This document shows, in pieces, positions 4,510-11,620 of a stretch of DNA of 34,819 nucleotides. Under the pieces are notes generated by a model that saw only the letters and a list, made by a program, of their open reading frames with translations, searched no databases and was not told where the DNA came from. Source of the stretch: Candidatus Sulfopaludibacter sp. SbA3 (GTDB taxonomy: Bacteria; Acidobacteriota; Terriglobia; 20CM-2-55-15); NCBI GenBank assembly GCA_945865815.1, contig CAMBFR010000034.1, forward strand, positions 1-34,819. The letters are read 5' to 3'. Each line of letters opens with the position of its first letter. Positions within the stretch are counted from its first letter, which is position 1. Made by a program: the position numbers and the translations under genes.

Positions 4510-4992
4510 ATGACGGATACCCGAAAGGCAGCGCCCGCGTGGAGGAAGAACATCCCATCCCAGGTGCGCATGGTTGTGGAGGTCGATGGCAATCCTGTTG
4601 GCCTCCTGAGTCTGGACATCGATCGCCTCTGGCCTCTGATCAGCCACCGAAAGAGGGATAGCGTGTCCGTCGAATGGATCGATGTGCAGGAATTCGGAGG
4701 GCTCACGCGCGCCTCGGTTGTAAAGCGGTTGACGGCGCGCATTCAGTCCGATCTTTCCCAGGCCCTGGGAAAGGAGATGATCAAGGCCGCACTCGACGTG
4801 GAAACCTTCATGTTAAAGACCCAGTCGGCGGCCCAGGCATTCGGACGAAAAAAAACCGATATCCAAAAGCTCGTGGCAGGGTCCGATCGGACTCCCGCCG
4901 ATTTTTACGCGTTTTTCTGGGATTACCTTCTTGATGAAAGGGAAGTCGTGGACCTGAAGAAAAAGTGGAAGACCGCTGCTAAGAAGCGTTAG
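4510..4992 (+). CDS. Conserved-looking hypothetical protein, 160 aa
   Basis: I do not recognise this family. The product is soluble and basic, with no signal peptide or membrane helix. The N-terminal third looks like beta strands (VRMVVEVDGNPVGLLSLDID). The middle and C-terminal parts are likely helical with many charged residues, ending in a Lys-rich tail. A strong GAGGAG site (4499-4504) overlapping the transketolase stop codon supports the start and suggests co-transcription with tkt. Its stop TAG (4990-4992) overlaps the stop of the convergent queF gene. No cysteine pairs or catalytic motifs stand out. Confidence 0.75.
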   Translation: MTDTRKAAPAWRKNIPSQVRMVVEVDGNPVGLLSLDIDRLWPLISHRKRDSVSVEWIDVQEFGGLTRASVVKRLTARIQSDLSQALGKEMIKAALDVETFMLKTQSAAQAFGRKKTDIQKLVAGSDRTPADFYAFFWDYLLDEREVVDLKKKWKTAAKKR

Positions 4993-5372
4993 CCGCGTTT
5001 GTACTCCGCCTCTATCACGGACTTCATCCCGCCCCGAGAACTGAACTCCCCAATGACCCTGGCCGCGATCGGCTGGGCGGCGGCCACGACATCTTTCAAT
5101 ACCCGGTTTACGACGTTTTCGTAAAAGATCCCGAGATTGCGGTACGACTGGAAATACATTTTCAGTGACTTCAACTCGAGGCAGGACTTGTCGGGCCGGT
5201 ATTTGATCGTGATCTGCCCGAAGTCCGGCAAGCCGGTCTTGGGACAGATCGATGTGAATTCGGGCATCGAAATGCTGATTTCATAATCGGGATACTGGTT
5301 AGGCCAGCATTCAATGGCGGGCAGGTCGGCGTTGATGCCGGATTTGGCGTGTTGATCCGTGTACTCAGCCAC
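4989..5372 (-). CDS. queF: NADPH-dependent 7-cyano-7-deazaguanine reductase (QueF)
   Basis: QueF reduces the nitrile preQ0 to the amine preQ1 in queuosine biosynthesis. This 127-residue protein is of the short, single-domain type. It shows FTSICPKTGLPDFG with the catalytic C43 and D50, the family motif ELKSLKMY (66-73) for NADPH binding, and SYRNLGIFYE with the substrate-binding Glu. The start is GTG at 5372. No Shine-Dalgarno is present, but a TATATT hexamer lies 6 nt upstream, so translation is probably leaderless. No other queuosine genes are in the window. The stop codon overlaps that of the convergent hypothetical gene. Confidence 0.95.
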   Translation of the reverse strand: MAEYTDQHAKSGINADLPAIECWPNQYPDYEISISMPEFTSICPKTGLPDFGQITIKYRPDKSCLELKSLKMYFQSYRNLGIFYENVVNRVLKDVVAAAQPIAARVIGEFSSRGGMKSVIEAEYKRG

Positions 5373-5378
5373 AAACCG

Positions 5379-5384
5379 AATATA
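5379..5384 (-). promoter_or_regulatory. Extended -10 element of a queF promoter
   Basis: On the reverse strand TGC-TATATT forms an extended -10 element whose end is 6 nt from the GTG start of queF. Initiation would fall at or next to the start codon. It lies downstream of the terminator at 5403-5443, so queF can be expressed without reading through the upstream RNA. No clear -35 box is seen. Confidence 0.5.
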
Positions 5385-5402
5385 GCACAGGCTCTCGGCG
5401 CA

Positions 5403-5443
5403 AATATAAAAGCCCTCCGTGGCTTCTTACCTTCGGAGGGCTT
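5403..5443 (-). terminator. Intrinsic terminator of the structured RNA before queF
   Basis: On the reverse strand AAGCCCTCCG (from 5443 down) pairs perfectly with CGGAGGGCTT (ending at 5410), a 10-bp stem with a 14-nt loop, followed by TTATATT. Read on the plus strand the hairpin has no T-tract, so it acts on minus-strand transcription. It lies about 30 nt before the queF start codon. Confidence 0.8.
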
Positions 5444-5604
5444 GTTCCTAGTCTCCTTCATCGCCGCACTCTTGGTTCCGCTCGCGAAATCCTATTCGCT
5501 TGGGTTCCGTCCCTCTGCAGACATCCTAAAACCGAGTGCGACCGACTACCGTCCCTGGCTGGAGTAGCCAAAATGCTACTAGGAAAATCAGTCTCGTTAG
5601 AGAC
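5403..5604 (-). ncRNA. Candidate structured RNA of about 200 nt, class unknown
   Basis: No protein-coding gene fits 5373-5695, but the minus strand has promoter, folded body and terminator in order. The predicted RNA begins with a 5' hairpin, GTCTC-TAAC-GAGAC (5604-5591). A closing stem joins 5579-5583 to 5447-5451 and continues as 5561-5564 with 5453-5456. A 4-bp TAGC/GCTA hairpin (5565-5578) fits exactly between those strands, giving a three-way junction. A long central stem pairs 5534-5540 with 5465-5471 and 5530-5533 with 5474-5477, with a 2-nt bulge. A small hairpin at 5484-5499 sits near its tip, and the 10-bp terminator ends the RNA. Size and a long rod interrupted by unpaired strands recall 6S RNA, but I cannot match it to 6S, preQ1 riboswitches, SRP, tmRNA or RNase P by recognisable motifs. 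A separate queF promoter downstream favours an independent RNA over a queF leader. Confidence 0.65.
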
Positions 5605-5610
5605 GCTTGG

Positions 5611-5639
5611 ATTCTGGTATCGAAGCGAAAAGTTTGCAA
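5611..5639 (-). promoter_or_regulatory. Sigma-70-like promoter of the structured RNA
   Basis: On the reverse strand TTGCAA (5639-5634) and CAGAAT (5616-5611) are separated by exactly 17 nt. Each matches four of six consensus bases. The expected start, about 7 nt downstream near 5604, is the first base of the 5' hairpin of the RNA, which ties promoter and transcript together. Confidence 0.5.
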
Positions 5640-5657
5640 TAGTTATTTCCAAAAAAC

Positions 5658-5688
5658 TTGTCTGTCCACGAACATGCTGCGCTACTAT
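5658..5688 (+). promoter_or_regulatory. Promoter of the DsbA-like gene, probably leaderless
   Basis: TTGTCT (5658-5663) and TACTAT (5683-5688) are spaced by 19 nt. TACTAT ends 7 nt before the ATG at 5696, so the transcript should begin at or next to the start codon. No Shine-Dalgarno is present. Confidence 0.45.
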
Positions 5689-5695
5689 TTAGCGC

Positions 5696-6376
5696 ATGTC
5701 GAACATGGCCAAACCCATTTTAGTCATCGCCATCGCAGTGGTACTCGCGGGCGGCGCGGCGTTCTATCTCACACGGTCCACAGAACCGGAAGCATCAGCC
5801 ACCTCGGATAGCTCCGCGGGAGGCGCGCCGGCAATAGGCCCGGGGCATACGAGGGGGCCTGCGGACGCACCGATCACCTTGATCGAATTCGGCGACTATC
5901 AGTGTCCCAGCTGCCGCGCATATCACCCGGTCGTTGCGGAGGTGCTGAAGCGTTATCCCGACAAAGTCCGGCTGGAATTCCATCACTATCCGCTCATCCA
6001 GATTCATGCGCATGCAATGACAGCGTCGATGGCTGTAGAGGCGGCAGGCGAACAAGGCAAATATTGGGAAATGAACGATCTCGTTTTTGAACTGCAACCG
6101 GAGTGGGCGCAAAGCCAGAATCCTGAAACGGAGTTCCTGACCATGGCCAGCCGGTTGGGCCTGGACCAGAACAAGTTCATGCAATCGATGCGCTCACTGG
6201 AACTGCAGGACCGCGTCCTAAAGGATGTCGTAGCCGCACGCCAGGGAAATATCGAAGCCGTCCCCACGTTCTTTCTCAATGGCAAGCAGATTCAGCCGCG
6301 GTTGGCCGTCGACGATTTCGTAAAAATCATCGAGGCGGAACTTCAGGCGATTGGCGCCGCGGGAGCGGCGAAATGA
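5696..6376 (+). CDS. Membrane-anchored DsbA-like thioredoxin
   Basis: An N-terminal hydrophobic segment (about 8-24) anchors or exports this 226-residue protein. A low-complexity linker follows, then a DsbA-type thioredoxin domain. The active site is CPSC (C70, C73) within EFGDYQCPSCRAYHP, and the cis-proline loop is EAVPTFFLNG near the C-terminus. Such proteins form or rearrange disulfides in periplasmic proteins. The VKOR-like gene 39 nt downstream is its probable oxidising partner, which argues for net oxidation rather than isomerisation. No SD precedes ATG 5696 or the alternative ATG at 5705; the -10-like TACTAT favours 5696 as a leaderless start. The ccm operon 3 kb away would be one user of thiol chemistry in the same compartment. 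Confidence 0.9.
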   Translation: MSNMAKPILVIAIAVVLAGGAAFYLTRSTEPEASATSDSSAGGAPAIGPGHTRGPADAPITLIEFGDYQCPSCRAYHPVVAEVLKRYPDKVRLEFHHYPLIQIHAHAMTASMAVEAAGEQGKYWEMNDLVFELQPEWAQSQNPETEFLTMASRLGLDQNKFMQSMRSLELQDRVLKDVVAARQGNIEAVPTFFLNGKQIQPRLAVDDFVKIIEAELQAIGAAGAAK

Positions 6377-9089: not shown

Positions 9090-9116
9090 ACATTTCTACT
9101 TTCAAAGTGCTATACT
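9087..9116 (+). promoter_or_regulatory. ccm operon promoter
   Basis: ATGACA (9087-9092) and TATACT (9111-9116) each match five of six sigma-70 consensus bases with an 18-nt spacer. Initiation near 9123 would leave a leader of about 23 nt containing the ccmE ribosome site GTAGAGGT. Confidence 0.65.
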
Positions 9117-9145
9117 CCAGAGGATTTTTTCGTAGAGGTAAATCC

Positions 9146-9571
9146 ATGAAACGCAAACAACTTAAGTTTGTTGTCGGCTCCGCAGTGATTGTGGTCACCC
9201 TTGCCATCCTTGGTTTCTCCGGATTCACCGAGAGCATGGCCTACTACCAGACGGTCTCTGAGCTCTACGCCAAGAAAGACTCCTACTACGACAAAAGGCT
9301 GAGAGTCTCTGGTGACGTCGTTCCCAAGACGATCGTGCGGGACGGTATGGCCGTCAAGTTTGACATCCAGCACGAAGGCCAGACACTGTCGGTTACCTAT
9401 GTAGGAACCGATCCTCTTCCAGATACTTTCCGCGACTATGCCACGGCAGTCGTCGACGGCAAGTACGGCCGCGACGGTCTCTTCACCGCAACTGGACTTC
9501 AAGCCAAGTGCGCTTCCAAATACGAGAAGGAAGCTGCAGCCGGCGTAGTAACACAAAACTCTGGAGAATAA
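9146..9571 (+). CDS. ccmE: Cytochrome c maturation heme chaperone CcmE, CXXXY type
   Basis: CcmE binds heme covalently in the periplasm and hands it to the CcmF ligation complex. This 141-residue protein has one N-terminal membrane anchor (about 8-28) and the OB-fold core, with VSGDVVPKTI and VTYVGTDPLPDTFRD. Where most CcmE proteins have the heme-binding HXXXY motif, this one has C122-A-S-K-Y126, that is CXXXY. That variant is known from archaea and some sulfate reducers. The ATG at 9146 is chosen because GTAGAGGT lies just upstream; an in-frame GTG at 9107 sits inside the promoter. It heads the ccm operon. Confidence 0.94.
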   Translation: MKRKQLKFVVGSAVIVVTLAILGFSGFTESMAYYQTVSELYAKKDSYYDKRLRVSGDVVPKTIVRDGMAVKFDIQHEGQTLSVTYVGTDPLPDTFRDYATAVVDGKYGRDGLFTATGLQAKCASKYEKEAAAGVVTQNSGE

Positions 9572-9574
9572 ATA

Positions 9575-11620
9575 ATGGCTCAGGTCGGGCAATTCGCGCT
9601 GGCCATGGCTGTAGTCGTGGCTGCGTACTCGATCGTCGCGTCGCTGCTCGGGATCCGGCTCAAGAGCGATAAACTCATCGCCAGTGGACGCAACGCGGCC
9701 ATCGGCACATTTGCATGTGTCACGATGGCGATGGTCAGTCTCGGCTACCTTTTCCTGGTCGACGATTTCTCGATAAATTACATCGCCGAGCACTCCAACC
9801 GCGATCTTCCGGTGTATTTCAAGATCAGCGCGGTCTGGGGCGGACAGGAAGGATCGCTCCTTTTCTGGGGCTGGCTGCTCACCGTGTATTCGGCGCTGGT
9901 GATCGTCCAGAACTGGCGCAAGCACACGGCAATGATGCCGTACGTGACGGCTGTGCTGATGTCGTCTGCAGTATTTTTTGCGGGCATGAACCTCTTCGTC
10001 GTAAACCCGTTCAATCAGATCGTTGTCCTGCAGCCTGGAGGAGTCAACGCGTTGTTTGTGCCGCCAGACGGCGCCGGCCTGAACCCCCTGCTGCAATACA
10101 TCCTGATGGTGATCCATCCGCCGATTCTCTATCTGGGCTTTGTCGGTTTTGCCGTGCCGTTCGCTTTCGCGATTGCAGCCATGGCGAGCCGGCAAATGGG
10201 CGACACATGGATTCGCACCACGCGCCGCTGGACGATGGTGGCGTGGTTCTTCCTCGGCGTCGGTATTCTCCTCGGCGGTAAATGGGCCTACGTCGAACTG
10301 GGCTGGGGCGGTTTCTGGGCGTGGGATCCCGTCGAGAACGCGTCCCTTATGCCCTGGCTGATCGCAACGGCATTCCTGCATTCCGTGATGGTTCAGGAAA
10401 AAAAGGGAATGATGAAAGTCTGGAACATGGTGTTGATCATCCTGACTTACATCATGTGCATCTTTGGAACTTTCCTCACCCGCAGCGGCCTGGTTTCATC
10501 CGTTCACGCCTTTGCGCAGTCGCCAATCGGCGGGTACTTTCTCGCATTCATCGTCATCGGGTTATCCGGCTCCTTGTATCTGCTTCTGGATCGGCTGAAC
10601 TACCTGAAGAGCGACAACCAGATGGAATCCCTCGTTTCGCGCGAAAGCAGTTTCATGTTCAACAATCTGATCCTGCTGGCCTCGTGCTTTGCGGTTTTCT
10701 GGGGGACCATCTTCCCCGTCATTTCTGAAGCGGCGCCCGAGTGGATGGGCGGCGGCGTGAAAGTTACGGTCGGCCCGCCGTTCTTTAATCGCGTGAATGT
10801 GCCGATCGCAATTTTTCTGATGTTCCTTACCGGCGTTGGGCCGCTGCTTGCCTGGCGGAAGGCATCCACGAATAGCCTGAAACGAAATTTTCTATGGCCT
10901 GCGGGCATTGCGCTCGCTGCGGGCGTCGTTCTTTTCTTCCAGGGAGTGGATCACTTCTACGCATGGCTCGCGGTTGTCATGTCCATTTTCGTGTCTCTGA
11001 CGATCGCCCGGGAGTTCTACAAGGGAGCGCGCGCGCGGAGCGTTGGCAGCGGAGAGAATTTCGTCGAAGCCGTGGTGAACCTCACGCTCCGAAATACCCG
11101 GCGTTACGGCGGCTACATTGTGCACTTCGGTTTCGTGCTCTTGTTCCTCGGCTGGTCCGGACAGGCATTCACCACCGATACGCAGGCCGAGGCCGGTATT
11201 GGCGATACCATCACGATGCGGCAGTACACGCTTCGCATGGATAGACTCGCTGTCGAAGAAGTGCAGAACTACACCAGCACGAAGGCGACGATAAGCCTCT
11301 TCGAGAACGGCGAAAAGGTCGGAGTGCTGTATCCGGAACGCCGGTTCTATAGCTCCAGCGGACAGCCAACGACGGAAGTGGCCATCTGGTCGACAATTAA
11401 GGAAGATCTCTACGTCGTGTTCGCCGGCCCGGCGCCGGACGGCAAAAAGGCAATCATGCAGGTCTACCTGAATCCGCTGGTTGCATGGGTTTGGATTGGC
11501 GGAATCATTCTCGGCCTTGGAACCTTGATTGCGATGTTGCCGAACAAGAAGTCGGCCCCGAGAACTTCGCAGGCAAGCCGTGTGGAGGAGAAAATAGAAG
11601 TTGAACAACACACGACGTAA
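9575..11620 (+). CDS. ccmF: Cytochrome c heme lyase subunit CcmF
   Basis: CcmF is the large integral membrane subunit that attaches heme to apocytochrome c. At 681 residues with many membrane helices it is of full length. Visible features are WGGQEGSLLFW (88-98), HPPILY with a candidate heme-ligand His (181), and the WWD heme-handling motif WGGFWAWDPVEN (244-255). The C-terminal part holds a periplasmic domain and a last helix. It starts 3 nt after ccmE, with CTGGAGAA as ribosome site, and its end overlaps the TTG start of ccmH by 20 nt. Confidence 0.97.
   Translation: MAQVGQFALAMAVVVAAYSIVASLLGIRLKSDKLIASGRNAAIGTFACVTMAMVSLGYLFLVDDFSINYIAEHSNRDLPVYFKISAVWGGQEGSLLFWGWLLTVYSALVIVQNWRKHTAMMPYVTAVLMSSAVFFAGMNLFVVNPFNQIVVLQPGGVNALFVPPDGAGLNPLLQYILMVIHPPILYLGFVGFAVPFAFAIAAMASRQMGDTWIRTTRRWTMVAWFFLGVGILLGGKWAYVELGWGGFWAWDPVENASLMPWLIATAFLHSVMVQEKKGMMKVWNMVLIILTYIMCIFGTFLTRSGLVSSVHAFAQSPIGGYFLAFIVIGLSGSLYLLLDRLNYLKSDNQMESLVSRESSFMFNNLILLASCFAVFWGTIFPVISEAAPEWMGGGVKVTVGPPFFNRVNVPIAIFLMFLTGVGPLLAWRKASTNSLKRNFLWPAGIALAAGVVLFFQGVDHFYAWLAVVMSIFVSLTIAREFYKGARARSVGSGENFVEAVVNLTLRNTRRYGGYIVHFGFVLLFLGWSGQAFTTDTQAEAGIGDTITMRQYTLRMDRLAVEEVQNYTSTKATISLFENGEKVGVLYPERRFYSSSGQPTTEVAIWSTIKEDLYVVFAGPAPDGKKAIMQVYLNPLVAWVWIGGIILGLGTLIAMLPNKKSAPRTSQASRVEEKIEVEQHTT

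Follow-up and report, generated by a model that had tools for sequence, protein, structure and literature searches.

A previously uncatalogued structured RNA family beside queF in soil Acidobacteria

Few regulatory RNAs have been described outside model phyla. In the window analyzed here, a 34,819-nucleotide stretch of a Candidatus Sulfopaludibacter genome, the minus strand carries a putative RNA gene (approximately 5403-5663) in an intergenic region, with queF on one side and a DsbA-like gene on the other. The element is about 200 nt long and has its own predicted start and stop signals. Does this locus encode an RNA of its own, is it a member of a known family, and on what could it act?

Locus, conservation, and distribution

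We found homologues by BLAST in 9 of the 11 genomes of the family, each between dsbA-vkor and queF; among the genomes examined, the order comprises the same 11 genomes as the family. A minus-strand promoter, TTGCAA-17-CAGAAT, had been proposed in the first-pass annotation and is borne out by all nine homologues, which keep TTGCA(A/T), a spacing of exactly 17 bases, and the -10 geometry. A simple sigma-70 scan of the window does not list this promoter because only 8 of 12 consensus bases match. The hairpin that the same annotation placed at the predicted first base was likewise recovered, starting from 5604, as was its terminator, a 10-bp hairpin (5410-5442) followed by a U-rich tail; all eight complete copies finish with a strong hairpin and a T-rich stretch. 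The features generally expected of a stand-alone sRNA, namely, its own promoter, a Rho-independent terminator, and an intergenic position, are therefore all found in the sequence (Table 1).

Table 1. Predicted features of the RNA gene and its immediate surroundings in the window
Feature	Position	Strand	Remarks
queF (preQ1 synthase)	4989-5372	minus	TIGR03139, 142.6 bits; next gene, outside the RNA
Separate queF -10, TATATT	5379-5384	minus	GTG start six bases downstream
Rho-independent terminator, 10-bp hairpin and U-rich tail	5403-5442 (hairpin 5410-5442)	minus	top covarying helix in the alignment
P1 3' strand, ACUAGGAA	5445-5452	minus	partner of the P1 5' strand
3' core with invariant GAAGGAG	5453-5460	minus	3' core mean pairwise identity 88%
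P2 3' strand, GAGUGCGG-CGA	5461-5471	minus	covariation in the alignment
P4 and P3 3' strands, GCGG-AACC	5474-5481	minus	pairing in the comparative alignment
P6 hairpin, GCGAA-UAGGAU-UUCGC	5484-5499	minus	loop GGA in 7/8; one covarying pair
P5 hairpin, GGG-ACGGAA-CCC	5502-5513	minus	loop GGA in 8/8
P4 5' strand, CUGC	5517-5520	minus	partner 5478-5481
P3 5' strand, GGUU	5530-5533	minus	partner 5474-5477; one pair changed on both sides
P2 5' strand, UCG-g-UCGCACUC	5534-5545	minus	partner 5461-5471; best covarying helix apart from the terminator
H1 hairpin, GGCU-ACUCC-AGCC	5557-5569	minus	invariant in 9/9; loop CUCC (5561-5564) could pair with GGAG (5453-5456)
P1 5' strand, UUCCUAGU	5578-5585	minus	partner 5445-5452; >90% of cells paired, little variation
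5' hairpin, GUCUC-UAAC-GAGAC	5591-5604	minus	hairpin with varied loop kept in 9 homologues; predicted first base ~5604
-10 hexamer, CAGAAT	5611-5616	minus	17-nt spacer from -35; A at position 2 and T at position 6 in 9/9
-35 hexamer, TTGCAA	5634-5639	minus	TTGCA(A/T) in 9/9 homologues
UP-element-like A/T-rich tract	5640-5663	minus	in homologues, T-run then A-run directly preceding the -35
DsbA-like gene	5696-6376	plus	other flank of the RNA

Conservation is concentrated in two parts of the element. Mean pairwise identity reaches 90% in a 5' core of 43 columns and 88% in a 3' core of 19 columns, whereas the 5' hairpin, the middle, and the terminator of the RNA stand at 56-60%; the neighboring queF is 74% identical overall, with 87% at first and second codon positions and 47% at third positions. 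Because both cores exceed the rest of the RNA and the third positions of queF so clearly, the alignment points to strong selection on two stretches, one towards each end of the RNA. A conserved peptide from the ATG of a small ORF at 5461 is unlikely, since that codon is GCG in G008.

Mapping the element beyond the family, we found that matches to the core pattern in 399 genomes of the class, with 3 mismatches allowed, are confined to the family. A covariance model of the RNA (R1) applied to 297 genomes of the phylum, with strict filters under which few candidates were scored, returned only the window and one marginal match. That match, in another family of the phylum (L026, G076:C107:31187-31260), is partial, with 25 bits and an E value of 0.009, and is probably due to chance. 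Among 84,980 species the exact pattern occurs on six contigs, all from Acidobacteria metagenome assemblies, three of them labeled gp5 and one Candidatus Sulfopaludibacter, and it is absent from the viral contigs and plasmids searched. The carriers are a small, mostly uncultured group of soil Acidobacteria, mostly of subdivision 5.

Even within the family, the RNA is not always retained. One genome (G006) lacks its 3' half: at L010 (G006:C386, approximately 1501-1607) the promoter, the 5' hairpin, and H1 are kept, the 3' half is gone, and the queF -10 comes next, which may be a real deletion or an assembly error. The RNA was not found in the two genomes of genus g4, where queF and dsbA share one direction. 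Since the RNA is truncated in the former and missing from the latter, its distribution in the genomes indicates that it is lineage-restricted and not universally required.

Two other open reading frames of the window were also noted. A 160-aa protein (4510-4992, plus strand), convergent with queF, has no match in Pfam or NCBIfam and is 60-81% identical in RNA-carrying relatives. A 423-aa ORF (9110-10381, minus strand), also without a match in Pfam or NCBIfam, runs across the start of a CcmF-like gene (9575-11620, plus strand); the ORF may therefore be spurious, or else either start may be misassigned.

A predicted branched fold with an invariant junction

Folding energy says less about this RNA than comparison does. 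The window sequence is more stable than its shuffles (z = -4.7 with the terminator and -2.7 without it), but the cores of the relatives fold unremarkably, with z only -0.5 to -1.4, and hence the case for the RNA is carried by conservation and not by fold stability. In a structure-blind alignment, we listed every helix with pairs formed in six or more of the eight sequences. Of the 245 helices, the terminator came first, followed by P2 (GUCGC/GCGGC), in which four of the five pairs have changed on both sides. Together, P2 and P3 (CGCACUC-GGUU/AACC-aa-GAGUGCG) coincide exactly with the 11-bp bulged stem that the first-pass annotation had drawn at 5530-5540/5465-5477. That annotation had also named as a test whether substitutions in relatives keep its stems, and they do: in a hand-assembled structure of P1, H1, and P2 to P6, 88.6% of cells are paired, compared to 28.8-46.3% when partners are slid by 1 to 3 columns. 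A model-fitted alignment, which leans towards the structure, gives 91.0% paired cells and nine pairs changed on both sides, a number equaled by none of 500 shuffles, although covariation statistics from only eight full sequences have limited power. P1 and H1 hardly vary and for this reason are not proven by covariation.

The core allows two arrangements. The closing stem proposed earlier was found as P1 (5578-5585/5445-5452), but its nested extension (5561-5564/5453-5456) is only one of two near-isoenergetic folds. In this nested fold, a UAGC/GCUA hairpin is combined with CUCC/GGAG pairing; in the other, a GGCU-ACUCC-AGCC hairpin leaves CUCC either free or pseudoknotted to GGAG. In most sequences the energies of the two folds differ by no more than about 2 kcal/mol, and the comparative data do not separate them. 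By energy, the GGCU/AGCC hairpin is more probable in most sequences; the nested fold is at a disadvantage of about 9 kcal/mol in G001 and has a slight advantage in G008. As a caveat, the consensus interior departs widely from the energy minimum in four relatives, and in four relatives the minimum is an alternative 3' hairpin. We set this hairpin aside in favor of P2 because, by inspection, its register is not conserved.

Comparison with known RNA families and relation to queF

The Rfam search proposed as a check in the first-pass annotation gave zero matches at gathering level and, up to E = 10 in 5300-5750, none of relevance; the sub-threshold matches, to mir-4872 and to Phe_leader (the latter on the terminator), were dismissed as irrelevant. 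Searches of open-access papers likewise turned up no description of this RNA. Two candidate noncoding RNAs of Acidobacteria, Acido-1 and Acido-Lenti-1 (RF01686 and RF01687), are known from comparative genomics (PMC2864571), but neither gives a covariance-model match to the element. Identity with 6S, signal recognition particle (SRP), or RNase P RNA was rejected, as clear loci for all three lie at other places in the genome (SRP RNA, 76.2 bits; RNase P RNA, 299.5 bits). Of the two main identities suggested before, a new RNA class gains support from the lack of an Rfam match, from homologues found in only one Acidobacteria family, and from the conserved promoter, fold, and terminator, while a diverged 6S RNA does not.

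The idea of a diverged or second 6S RNA is understandable, since 6S RNA (RF00013) shares with the element a size of about 200 nt, its own promoter and terminator, and a closing stem formed from both ends. However, a true 6S RNA, above cutoff with 76.2 bits, lies on another contig (C1:42136-42324), the locus has no RF00013 covariance-model match up to E = 10, and the interior differs: 6S RNA is a rod with a large central bubble, whereas here P1 closes a branched junction with H1 and P2, followed by P3-P4 with two hairpins. We regard 6S identity as highly improbable. A cis-acting leader of queF, that is, a riboswitch or attenuator in which the fold controls the terminator, is improbable as well, in agreement with the earlier annotation, which had ranked a queF riboswitch as less likely. 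The RNA does adjoin queF in all nine genomes, its terminator closely follows P1, and preQ1 riboswitches (classes I to III) can be compared to it by the position upstream of a queuosine gene. But the terminator precedes a separate queF -10, a feature that had been noted before and now recurs in 7 of 9 genomes as a TATA-type box 6 to 7 bases ahead of the start codon, and since it persists even in G006, where the RNA is truncated, queF is unlikely to be under riboswitch control. By the promoter evidence the element thus probably lies outside the queF transcript; its fold is larger and more branched than those of preQ1 riboswitches, no preQ1 covariance model matches up to E = 10, and no conserved antiterminator was seen. 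Moreover, about 40 to 70 extra bases part the terminator from queF in G005 and G001.

The position of the queF -10 relative to the GTG or ATG start appears to be the geometry of a leaderless mRNA. Another family of the class has several genomes in which similar -10 boxes were seen by eye ahead of queF. The G001 insertion (L009) is AT-rich, with inverted repeats of the CAATTGACAATTG type, and is MITE-like.

Candidate targets and binding partners

Taken together, the sequence evidence makes a stand-alone new RNA family very probable. We infer that the RNA is transcribed, that its 5' hairpin stabilizes it, and that it acts in trans. For its action we favor, tentatively, a lineage-restricted structured sRNA with its own transcription unit that would act in trans through ACUCC pairing. 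The C-rich invariant loop ACUCC would be presented on a hairpin within the P1-closed core and would pair with GGAG-type ribosome-binding sites in target mRNAs, while the RNA could clamp itself internally by masking the loop with the GGAG, also invariant, of its 3' core. Hfq could assist pairing; all 11 genomes of the family encode it. Both the loop and the 3' GGAG are invariant and the loop is complementary to GGAG ribosome-binding sites, which is consistent with this mechanism, itself best treated as one possibility among several. A pairing seed, however, would need far less than the conserved core, whose extent is more suggestive of a binding domain, and the core may instead bind a protein or a ligand.

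Two other explanations start from such binding. The invariant junction (P1, H1, and the foot of P2) of a stand-alone RNA could bind a regulatory protein, RNA polymerase, or a small molecule, with P3 to P6 as a scaffold. Two separate conserved stretches of 43 and 19 columns, joined by P1 and P2 and surrounded by variable peripheral helices, give a conservation pattern that resembles a binding pocket rather than a seed; yet the sequence suggests no partner and no known family matches, and we consider this explanation rather unlikely. Alternatively, the RNA could be a decoy of the CsrB/RsmY/RsmZ type, in which GGA motifs, located in the joints and in the loops of P5 and P6, would bind CsrA dimers and relieve mRNA repression. 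Such decoys resemble the element in size, in several GGA motifs in loops and joints, and in having their own terminator. GGA is present in the P5 loop of all eight sequences and in the P6 loop of seven, A-N-GGA occurs at about 2 to 4 times the shuffled mean, and CsrA is encoded in 11 of 11 genomes; the CsrB repeat, CAGGA(U/A/C)G (PMC7652899), is present in two copies in three relatives and in a single copy in a fourth. Nevertheless, plain GGA counts exceed those of shuffles only weakly and are mostly within their range, G003 has only four, and the strongest conservation falls outside the GGA sites, in a large invariant core unrelated to them. The element has no Rfam match. Arg44 of CsrA is critical for RNA binding (PMC7652899), but the sole CsrA detected in the window genome, whose assembly is 98% complete, is a paralogue with Thr in its place; canonical CsrA with Arg44 is found in the other RNA-bearing genomes and also in genomes without the RNA. 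At least one relative, in addition, has FliW, a known CsrA antagonist, beside csrA. On balance, CsrA capture is unlikely.

The CsrA-family protein of the window genome (L023 1489-1755, G000:C38) has a divergent C terminus in addition to the Thr for Arg44, and CsrA matches about as short occur alongside canonical CsrA in other genomes. In G004 (L024 977-2374, G004:C416), fliW is followed by two tandem csrA genes.

A broader version, in which a new class of structured RNA has a two-ended invariant junction binding a cellular partner in trans, one form of it capturing CsrA alongside FliW, is somewhat doubtful. According to a 2020 review, the combination of an RNA decoy of CsrA with FliW is undetermined for any species (PMC7652899).

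Whichever partner or target applies, this is, judging from the sequences, a real and previously uncatalogued structured RNA family, which so far looks like a bacterial structured sRNA and not a new principle. It gives the mostly uncultured soil Acidobacteria a well-delimited new RNA family with a covariance model and a defined core. If the RNA did capture CsrA, such a decoy would be unusual beyond the Gammaproteobacteria and could help to show whether RNA decoys and FliW operate together.
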